DNA of 36,688 nt, from positions 1-36,688 of the forward strand of contig JASEGR010000025.1 in NCBI GenBank assembly GCA_030017955.1. The letters run 5' to 3'. The position numbers and the translations under genes are program-made. Source of the DNA: Candidatus Eisenbacteria bacterium. Its GTDB lineage: Bacteria; Eisenbacteria; RBG-16-71-46; JASEGR01. This document shows positions 17,033 through 36,688 of the stretch, piece by piece. The notes under the pieces are model-generated. The model was not told the origin of the DNA. It worked only from the letters and a program-made list of their open reading frames with translations, and searched no databases. Position 1 is the stretch's first letter. The number at the start of each line of letters is the position of its first letter.

Positions 17033-17249
17033 CCAGTGTGCCGTCCCAGAAATAGCTTCACGAAATGCAGGGCGGTTTCATAAGGCACACTGCCAGGGGG
17101 TATGAGGGGGTCGCGGCCGACCCCCTTAAGGGGTTACAGTTGCGAAAGTTGCCGGTGGCAAGTTTCGAAATGTCATAGGGGCGATAGCCCCTGTGAAAGT
17201 GCTGGGGCACCGCATAATAAGTTCGCGAATTTATGTGACACAGCACTGG
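17033..17249 (+). repeat. Dispersed structured repeat, copy 1 (rpoN-hpf)
   Basis: This is a complete copy of a non-coding element also found after ahcY and nadD. Visible pairings in order: AGTGTGCC 17035-17042 with GGCACACT 17084-17091; GGGGGTCG 17106-17113 with CGACCCCC 17118-17125; CGAAA-TTGCC with GGCAA-TTTCG (one G-G mismatch) near 17144-17168; AGGGGC 17177-17182 with GCCCCT 17187-17192; AGTGCTG 17198-17204 with CAGCACT 17241-17247. The ends CCAG and CTGG are each one transition from CTAG. A further hairpin, TGGGG-CGGC-CCCCA, lies just left of it after the rpoN stop. The right end abuts the hpf ribosome binding site. Confidence 0.85.
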
Positions 17250-28679: not shown

Positions 28680-29945
28680 ATGAGGGATACGGCTTCAGAG
28701 GTTAAAGATCTTTCGCTTAGCACGAGCGGAAAGTTGAAGATTGAATGGGCATCAAGAAACATGAAAGTGCTCGACCTAATAAGCGAGAGATTTGAGAGAG
28801 AGAAACCACTTGAGAACGTTGTGATTGGTGCATGCCTCCATGTCACAAGTGAAACCGCAAATCTCATGGCTGCGTTGGTGCGTGGAGGCGCAAAGGTTTC
28901 CCTCTGCGGGTCCAATCCGCTGAGCACACAGGATGATGTGGCCGCTTCCCTTGCGAGCGATTTCGGTGTGTCGGTCTACGCTATCAAAGGCGAGGACAAC
29001 AAGACATACTATTCTCACATAGAGAGCGTGCTTGGGCAGGAGCCGGATGTGACGATGGACGATGGCGCCGACTTGGTATCGATGCTCCACTCGGAGAAAA
29101 AAGGGCTGATCAAGAAAATAATCGGTGGAACGGAGGAGACTTCAACCGGAGTCTTGAGACTGAGAAGTATGGAATCCAAAGGCGTGCTTGCCTACCCGAT
29201 CATTGCGGTGAACGACGCAGACACAAAGCATCTTTTCGATAACCGGTACGGCACCGGACAAAGCACCATAGACGGAATCTTGAGATGCACAAACATGCTT
29301 TATGCCGGTTCGACATTTGTGGTGTGCGGATATGGCTGGTGCGGCAGGGGAGTGGCGATCAGGGCAAAGGGAATGGGGGCTAAGGTGATTGTGTGCGAAG
29401 TTGATCCTCTGCGCGCCCTAGAAGCCCTGATGGACGGTTACGAAGTAACGTCTATGAGTGATGCGGCTCAAAAGGGAGACGTGTTTGTCACTGTTACCGG
29501 CAATGTGAACGTTCTCAGGAAAGAGCATTTCGAAAAAATGAAGGACGGCGCGGTGGTGGCGAACTCCGGGCACTTCAACGTCGAGATCGATATCAAGACA
29601 CTTGAGTCTCTCTCCAAAGGCAAACGTACGGTCAGGCCGTTCGTCGAGGAGTATCAGCTTCGCTCGGGCAAGAGGATAAATCTACTCGGCGAAGGGAGAC
29701 TGATCAATCTTGCCGCCGCTGAGGGACATCCGGCAACCGTAATGGACATGAGTTTCGCCAACCAGGCACTCTCTGTTGAGTATTTGATCAAAAATGGAAA
29801 GGGTCTCGGGAGCAAGGTGTACAAAGTCCCGCCTGAAATTGACAAAGAGGTGGCAAGGCTGAAACTCAAGTCGCTTGGCATAGCCATCGACGAGCTTACC
29901 GAAGAGCAAAAGAACTATCTTTCCGCCTGGGAGCTTGGGACCTAG
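28680..29945 (+). CDS. ahcY: S-adenosylhomocysteinase
   Basis: This NAD-dependent enzyme hydrolyses S-adenosylhomocysteine to adenosine and homocysteine. The 421-aa sequence shows SNPLSTQDDVAASL, GGTEETSTGVLRL, the NAD-binding GYGWCGRG at 217-224 and VTGNVNVL. It is the shorter bacterial/archaeal form, lacking the loop found in many plant and proteobacterial enzymes. ATG 28680 follows AAAGGAG. Its TAG stop (29943-29945) is inside the CTAG that borders repeat copy 2. Confidence 0.96.
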   Translation: MRDTASEVKDLSLSTSGKLKIEWASRNMKVLDLISERFEREKPLENVVIGACLHVTSETANLMAALVRGGAKVSLCGSNPLSTQDDVAASLASDFGVSVYAIKGEDNKTYYSHIESVLGQEPDVTMDDGADLVSMLHSEKKGLIKKIIGGTEETSTGVLRLRSMESKGVLAYPIIAVNDADTKHLFDNRYGTGQSTIDGILRCTNMLYAGSTFVVCGYGWCGRGVAIRAKGMGAKVIVCEVDPLRALEALMDGYEVTSMSDAAQKGDVFVTVTGNVNVLRKEHFEKMKDGAVVANSGHFNVEIDIKTLESLSKGKRTVRPFVEEYQLRSGKRINLLGEGRLINLAAAEGHPATVMDMSFANQALSVEYLIKNGKGLGSKVYKVPPEIDKEVARLKLKSLGIAIDELTEEQKNYLSAWELGT

Positions 29946-30165
29946 TGTGCCGTCCCAGAAATAGCTTTACTAAAGGCAGGGTGTTTGATAAGGCACACTG
30001 CCAGGGGGTATGAGGGGGTCGTGGCCGACCCCCTTAAGGGGTGACAGCGTAGGGATGCGACGAGTAGGAGCATCCTGAAGCGTCAGAGGGGCGAGAAGCC
30101 CCTATGAAAGTGTCGTGTCCGGGGGGCAAAGACATGGACAAGGAACTTACAGGACACGACACTAG
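29942..30165 (+). repeat. Dispersed structured repeat, copy 2 (ahcY-ftsK), flanked by CTAG
   Basis: This complete copy lies between CTAG at 29942-29945 and CTAG at 30162-30165. Pairings: AGTGTGCC 29944-29951 with GGCACACT 29992-29999; GGGGGTCG 30014-30021 with CGACCCCC 30026-30033; GGGATGC 30052-30058 with GCATCCT 30070-30076; AGGGGC 30087-30092 with GCCCCT 30098-30103; a perfect 12-base pair stem AGTGTCGTGTCC 30109-30120 with GGACACGACACT 30152-30163. It matches copy 1 closely over the first 100 bases, then mainly in structure. Its left end supplies the ahcY stop and its right end touches the ftsK ribosome binding site. Confidence 0.88.
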
Positions 30166-36019: not shown

Positions 36020-36604
36020 ATGAAAATCGGACTCATGGGGGGCACATTTGACCCGATACACTTCGGGCATCTTTTTATCGCCGAGGAGGCGCGGACGAAG
36101 CTCGGGTTGTCCAAGGTGATTTTCGTGCCCAGCGGGCGTCCTCCGCACAAGGAGAGGAACTATCTGTCTCCCGCGAAAGACAGGATTGAAATGACTTCGC
36201 TTGCGATCCGCGGCAATCCTTTCTTCGAGCTGAGCGACATAGAGGTGAAATCGGATGAGATATCCTTCACGGTGAGGACCATCGTTTCGTTCAGGAACGT
36301 TGTCGGCAAGGAAGCGGCCCTCTATCTTATCATGGGTTCGGACAGCCTGGCGGAACTGGGGACTTGGAAAGACCCGGAAAAGATCCTGGATGAATGCACA
36401 GTGGTTGCGGTAAGAAGGCCCGGCTGCAAAACACCGGAACCGGAGGAATTGCGGAGACAGAAAGTGAGTGTCATTGATTCCCAGGGAGTCGAGATATCCT
36501 CCACTGAGATAAGAAGAAGGATAGGGAGGGGTGAATCCGTAAGATATCTGATGCCTGACGCCGTGTTGTCCTACATCGCATCTCACGGCCTGTACCGCTC
36601 CTAG
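36020..36604 (+). CDS. nadD: Nicotinate-nucleotide adenylyltransferase
   Basis: NadD adenylates nicotinate mononucleotide in NAD synthesis. The 194-aa sequence has GGTFDPIHFGHL (nucleotidyltransferase HxGH motif) at residues 7-18, the IFVPSGRPPHK region, and the C-terminal EISSTEIRRRIGRGES motif. ATG 36020 is three bases after the previous stop. The usual partner rsfS is not visible because a dispersed-repeat copy starts at its TAG stop (36602-36604). Confidence 0.96.
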   Translation: MKIGLMGGTFDPIHFGHLFIAEEARTKLGLSKVIFVPSGRPPHKERNYLSPAKDRIEMTSLAIRGNPFFELSDIEVKSDEISFTVRTIVSFRNVVGKEAALYLIMGSDSLAELGTWKDPEKILDECTVVAVRRPGCKTPEPEELRRQKVSVIDSQGVEISSTEIRRRIGRGESVRYLMPDAVLSYIASHGLYRS

Positions 36605-36688
36605 TGTGCTGTCCCACAAATAACTTTACGAAATGCACGACCTTTGATAAGGCACACTGCCAGGGGGTATGAGGGGGTCGTGGCCGAC
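36601..36688 (+). repeat. Dispersed structured repeat, copy 3 (after nadD), truncated by window end
   Basis: The first 84-88 bases of the element are present: CTAG at 36601-36604 (containing the nadD stop), AGTGTGCT 36603-36610 pairing with GGCACACT 36651-36658 (one T-G wobble), and GGGGGTCG at 36673-36680 followed by TGGC and the start of its complement. It is nearly identical to copies 1 and 2 in the conserved core. The remaining half lies outside the window. Confidence 0.85.

Follow-up and report, generated by a model that had tools for sequence, protein, structure and literature searches.

A Roughly 70-Copy Intergenic Repeat in a Krumholzibacteriota Genome Is Very Probably a Non-Autonomous IS630-Type Transposon Frequently Located on Stop Codons

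The Repeat and Its Genomic Setting

The stretch of DNA analyzed here (the window) coincides with the entire contig C25, 36,688 bp in length, from a genome of 3.1 Mb in 248 contigs that is 97% complete. Three copies of a short repeat lie between its genes, at 17033-17249, 29942-30165, and 36601-36688, all on the + strand, as are all features described below unless stated otherwise. Both these positions and the lengths of the left hairpins (57 bases in copy 1, 56 in copy 2, and 56 in copy 3) agree with an earlier note on this DNA. Full copies of the element are 213-222 bp in length, have no protein-coding capacity of their own, and consist of five consecutive hairpins, some of which occur in two alternative sequence versions, referred to as types A and B.

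Copy 1 (17033-17249) is of full length and is located between rpoN and hpf, with flanks of CC...GG that represent a decayed or non-CTAG site. It is chimeric, the left third being of type A and the variable hairpin and right end of type B. The left terminal hairpin, AGTGTGCC...GGCACACT (17035-17091), includes the type A left terminal inverted repeat and is followed by an invariant G+C-rich hairpin, GAGGGGGTCG-CGGC-CGACCCCCTT (17104-17127), the V2 version of the variable hairpin, CGAAAGTTGCC...GGCAAGTTTCG (17143-17167), an AGGGGC-GCCCCT hairpin (17177-17192), and a type B right terminal hairpin, AGTGCTG...CAGCACT (17198-17247), which includes the type B right terminal repeat. The adjacent rpoN is 51-53% identical to Krumholzibacteriia records, with other groups being more distant, which places the organism in the Krumholzibacteriota. 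One relative from the Krumholzibacteriia (L148) has, after rpoN and with no element in between, what was recognized by eye as hpf-like sequence, and copy 1 therefore seems to split a conserved rpoN-hpf pair.

Copy 2 (29942-30165), between the adenosylhomocysteinase gene and ftsK, is a full-length type A element with CTAG at both flanks, the left one of which forms the TAG stop codon (29943-29945) of adenosylhomocysteinase, a gene that ends at 29945. Its left terminal inverted repeat, GTGTGCCGTCCCAGAAATAGC, occupies 29945-29965 and its right one, a diverged form of GTGTCGTGTCCCGGAAATTCC, occupies 30142-30162 on the - strand. The five hairpins are the left terminal (29944-29999), the invariant G+C-rich (30012-30035), the V1 version of the variable hairpin, GGGATGC...GCATCC inside GACxGC...GCGTC (30043-30084), the AGGGGC-GCCCCT (30087-30103), and the right terminal, AGTGTCGTGTCC...GGACACGACACT (30109-30163). 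Copy 3 (36601-36688) is likewise of type A, and its CTAG at 36601-36604 is the source of the stop codon of a nadD-like nucleotidyltransferase gene (36020-36604). A left terminal hairpin was placed at 36603-36658 by eye through alignment to other copies. This copy stops after 88 bases because the contig ends there and does not represent a shorter form.

Copy Number and Distribution

Used as a blastn query, copy 2 found 41 places in the genome and copy 1 found 40, partly other than those of copy 2, and the type B form as query located further places. A covariance model derived from 28 full copies identified 31 full-length and 22 partial places, and a pattern for the terminal repeats matched 164 sites versus 19 for a backwards control pattern, excluding chance. 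Once duplicates had been removed by flank sequence, 69 distinct left ends and 60 distinct right ends remained, giving a family of roughly 70 copies, with a few of the left ends being solo fragments. Many copies are identical or nearly identical, and many contigs end about 55 or about 91 bases into an element, which is expected since near-identical repeats break short-read assembly.

The earlier note, working from three copies, had suggested a dispersed intergenic family with many genomic copies and a mobile or regulatory nature, and on the scale of the genome this was borne out by the blastn searches, the covariance model, and the counts of distinct ends. It had further proposed searching this genome and its relatives and building such a model; the searches returned dozens of copies here and none in relatives. 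The flanks of all copies differ from one another, which removes segmental duplication as an explanation, and Rfam provided no match to a known RNA family (the best chance match scored 14.3 bits against a gathering score of 60). No copy was found with the covariance model in 46 other Krumholzibacteriota genomes, or with blastn in 58 other genomes, none of them closer than class level. A core pattern had no match in 84,980 GTDB genomes, nor did a second core pattern in viral contigs or blastn in phage and plasmid collections. The literature searched holds no report of this MITE family.

Hairpin Structure and Subfamilies

The order of the five hairpins is left terminal, G+C-rich, variable, AGGGGC-GCCCCT, and right terminal. 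The two termini do not pair with one another; each instead pairs with an inner segment on its own side, as in the AGTGTGCC...GGCACACT and AGTGTCGTGTCC...GGACACGACACT hairpins, and the G+C-rich hairpin, GAGGGGGTCG-CGACCCCC, is nearly invariant. Two versions (A and B) exist for both ends and for the variable hairpin; they differ in sequence and retain pairing. Type A-A-A is the common form and type B-B-B is represented by L071-L074; there are three chimeric copies, namely copy 1 and L043, in which the left end is A and the rest B, and L048, in which the left end and variable hairpin are A and the right end is B. The separate-hairpin design covaries between the two subfamilies and in the three chimeras.

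The five-hairpin structure has a folding z-score of -5.9. Among 28 copies, helices 1, 2, 5, and 6 are 99-100% paired, these being the helices for which per-helix figures are valid, as helices 3 and 4 were shifted in the hand-written structure. Across the entire structure, 38 cells are changed on both sides versus 11.8 in shuffles; most of these double changes reflect the A/B split, so that independent covariation events are few. Within type A, a few compensatory cells are found in columns 73-96, 153-159, and 172-222. Paired positions change at half the rate of unpaired positions (0.038 versus 0.079). At one site (L156, G000:C45:20500-23800, about 1798-1819) a solo left hairpin module of 57 bp occurs and the remainder of the element is absent, which suggests that the left hairpin may end an element alone or that the copy was truncated.

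Terminal Repeats and Kinship With IS630 Elements

The outer 21 or so bases form inverted repeats at both ends, GTGTGCCGTCCCAGAAATAAC (left) and GTGTCGTGTCCCGGAAATTCC (right) in type A, and GTGCACCGTAACATAAATAAG (left) and GTGCTGTGTCACATAAATTCG (right) in type B. The end motif common to left and right is GTCCC-R-GAAAT in type A and GT-M-ACATAAAT in type B; the left and right motifs have changed together in each type, as would be expected if both ends follow one transposase. The best match to the type A left end (GTGTGCCGTCCCAGAAATAACT) is an end of an IS630 element of Cupriavidus pinatubonensis (GTGTTCTGTCCCGGAAATAACT), with 19 of 22 bases identical. When viral contigs were searched with the type A repeat, a single contig (L194) was found, in which the repeat bounds a complete element whose end, GTGTGCCGTCCCA, is identical to the type A left end over the 13 leading bases. 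This element has CTAG on both sides and a 370-aa open reading frame with the DDE_3 and HTH_32/HTH_29 domains of IS630 transposases. A match of the type B repeat pattern in another viral contig (L195) falls inside a terminase-like gene and was dismissed as chance.

All seven complete IS630 elements considered from outside the genome are flanked by CTAG, these being the viral element L194 and six annotated elements from plasmids (L200-L205), with the closest ends reading GTGTnCYGTCCCrnnAATAACT. They differ from the repeat in carrying a transposase of about 370 aa of the DDE_3 type, whereas the repeat is without a gene. Terminal repeats and a CTAG target held in common with IS630-family transposons settle the identity of the family: the roughly 70-copy repeat is a non-autonomous IS630/Tc1-mariner transposon (MITE), a reading to which we assign a probability of about 90%.

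The sole IS630 element found in the genome has the N-terminal part of its transposase on contig C19 and the C-terminal part on C3. About 13 of its right ends were located, and all 10 inspected sit in CTAG. Its repeat, GTGTAGTGCGTC, departs from that of the MITE after the first bases, and owing to this difference in the inner repeat the resident element is a relative of the partner and probably not the partner itself. A transposase with MITE-matching ends was not found in the genome bin, and contigs composed of repeats are probably missing from the assembly. Viral contigs searched with the resident IS630 contained no match to it, and a weak match on C23 was recognized by eye as the beginning of another transposase, an IS3-like one. 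At one locus (L108, G000:C76, 1-80) a copy of the resident IS630 has inserted into the CTAG at the end of a type A element. A second repeat, CCCTACCCTCTCCCC...GGGGAGAGGG, is present beside elements and IS630 ends at L031, L070, L156, and L170, and looks like another small interspersed family.

Target Site, Stop Codons, and Orientation

CT|AG flanks were found at 51 of the 69 left ends and 48 of the 60 right ends. Previous work (PMC2170065, citing Tenzen and Ohtsubo 1991) has established that IS630 targets the TA within CTAG, which it duplicates; because CTAG is palindromic, such a duplication is indistinguishable from longer repeats. Left CC and right GG flanks occur together in 5 of 28 full copies (p = 0.003), a linkage that is not obviously explained by simple decay of the TA and that counts against the MITE model. 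Either both duplicated TA sequences have decayed by T-to-C change in these copies, or some insertions took CCGG as their target and duplicated nothing. Divergence tends to be higher in copies whose flanks have decayed, although not significantly so (p = 0.12). The window contains 26 CTAG sites versus 42 expected from trinucleotides; 23 lie outside the elements, 14 of them in coding sequence, and seven of the remaining nine are stop codons. Of the 17 TAG stop codons in the window, nine are preceded by C. Left terminal repeats that stand alone, about 25 bases in length (CTAGTGTGCCGTCCCAGAAATAACTCTACTAG), occur at L154 (G000:C30, about 1788-1813) and L162 (G000:C32:25500-28400, about 1338-1363); both have CTAG on each side, both coincide with a gene's stop codon, and they may be relics of imprecise excision or of one-ended events.

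At 22 of the 69 left ends, the upstream gene terminates in frame at the CTAG, which provides its stop codon. The reverse arrangement, in which a gene terminates at the right-end CTAG and the element is thus antisense to it, was seen at 3 of the 60 right ends (p = 0.00016). Upstream genes are directed toward the element in a ratio of 49:19 and downstream genes away from it in a ratio of 44:14, according to gene calls made by a simple codon-usage method on short flanks, with both sides treated alike. Of the full copies flanked by co-directional genes, 18 have the sense and four the antisense orientation. The earlier note had placed all three copies in the orientation of the genes, which across the family stands as a strong bias (about 72-76%) and not as a rule. 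Insertion alone would lead to equal orientations, since CTAG is palindromic and TAG is restored either way. From this we infer selection against the antisense orientation after insertion; the skew may also stem from the replication strand or from an asymmetric preference for certain flanks. For one copy located between convergent genes (L009, G000:C85), the palindromic CTAG apparently provides a stop codon to each of the two genes, on opposite strands, and a single insertion appears to have recreated both stop codons.

Discussion

A mechanism consistent with the sequences is that an IS630-type transposase acting in trans would bind the repeats of about 21 bp at both ends, after which the element would be cut out and inserted at the TA within CTAG with duplication of the TA. 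Cut-and-paste movement, duplication of the TA, and a partner transposase as yet unseen are all inferred; an IS630 partner of this kind would be predicted to have ends of GTGTGCCGTCCC or GTGCACCGTAAC. Many copies lie on stop codons because CTAG is scarce and many non-coding CTAG sites are stops, and insertion at such a site would recreate the stop codon. Each end folds inward into a hairpin of its own, and copies strongly favor the sense orientation. The sense bias would most likely be due either to harm done to the transcript by antisense copies or to the sense RNA being harmless or mildly useful as a 3' untranslated stretch, and the sense RNA may play a role at the 3' ends of mRNAs. More doubtful is a reading in which selection acts on the sense RNA as a portable 3' end: the element would insert on the stop codon of a gene, recreate it, and in one orientation supply a 3' untranslated stretch of five hairpins; the ends would then be kept from pairing with each other, the transcript would fold as separate arms, and hairpins would be swapped between subfamilies with their pairing kept. 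Consensus sites for a terminator or promoter were not present beyond chance, and neither copy 1 nor copy 2 was found to have an intrinsic terminator (a stem and U-tract, SPRITE-like).

The orientation and stop-codon biases could instead be by-products of CTAG lying at stop codons, together with a replication-strand or transposase flank preference, with no selection at the level of the RNA or the gene. The scarcity of CTAG in the window and its placement on stop codons when outside coding sequence and elements agree with this, as does the finding that the pneumococcal BOX, RUP, and SPRITE repeats follow the leading strand at about 61-63% (PMC3049150). A palindromic target would nevertheless accept either orientation equally, and the observed ratio of 22:3 at stop codons far exceeds 61-63%; we consider this explanation a serious contender, though one we would not favor. 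Appreciably less probable is that the repeat is primarily a structured RNA under selection (an sRNA family, or a 3'-UTR element that regulates or protects the mRNA) for which transposition is only the means of spread. The folding score, the near-complete pairing, the excess of double changes, the slower change of paired positions, and the sense bias at stop codons are all as such an RNA would have them, and type B replaces entire hairpins with different sequence that still pairs. However, most of the double changes trace to the two subfamilies, Rfam and all relatives searched lack the repeat, and its many near-identical copies are too young to show constraint. When stem transitions that leave a sense-strand G-U pair were compared with those that break the pair, relative to loops, the ratios were 38:24 in stems and 56:38 in loops (p = 0.87), and no strand preference was seen.

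Single-strand transposition of the IS200/IS605 or REP/RAYT kind, in which hairpins would be recognized and no target duplicated at a YY|RR target that is mostly CTAG, is very improbable. It would account for the hairpins carried by both ends on one strand, for an orientation bias through a replication-strand preference, and for the CC|GG flanks as a mid-palindrome cut without duplication. The ends are nevertheless true inverted repeats over about 21 bp; they agree with IS630 ends at the level of individual bases, left and right repeats co-evolve, and CTAG is the target of IS630. IS605 elements are not known to have terminal inverted repeats.

The family is new, but of a kind already known, being most like the Repeat Unit of Pneumococcus (RUP), a short non-coding IS630-type repeat of about 100 copies with IS630-like ends, insertion at TA, and strong RNA folding, for which mobilization by IS630-Spn1 has been proposed (PMC3049150, PMC2229807). 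It is not a member of RUP, from which it differs in length, structure, and organism: RUP is 107 bp and thus half as long, whereas the present family is characterized by G+C-rich hairpins, by landing on stop codons, and by belonging to another phylum, and RUP has a proposed partner in IS630-Spn1. Furthermore, the terminal repeats of RUP and BOX pair with one another (PMC3049150), whereas here each end pairs inward. An RNA with two separate arms in place of an end-to-end stem is also described for the CIR repeats of Caulobacter and Brucella (PMC2229807); CIR has a conserved GANTC motif at a loop and no reported IS630 ends. BOX is similarly modular (PMC3049150), but varies in the number of boxB units, while the MITE family swaps entire hairpins. 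An effect on mRNA that depends on the orientation of the repeat has been described for ERIC (PMC2229807). Both BOX and ERIC have unrelated ends and an unrelated target.

The present analysis puts on record a family of IS630-type MITEs that has reached high copy number in a member of the Krumholzibacteriota, a phylum for which we know of no cultured model, and the repeat accounts for many of the contig breaks in the genome assembly. It also allows selection on the orientation of a transposon to be tested with unusual clarity, in that the target is palindromic and the stop codon is kept either way, with 22 of 25 copies nonetheless lying in the direction of the gene. The cause of this skew would show whether such repeats act via RNA.
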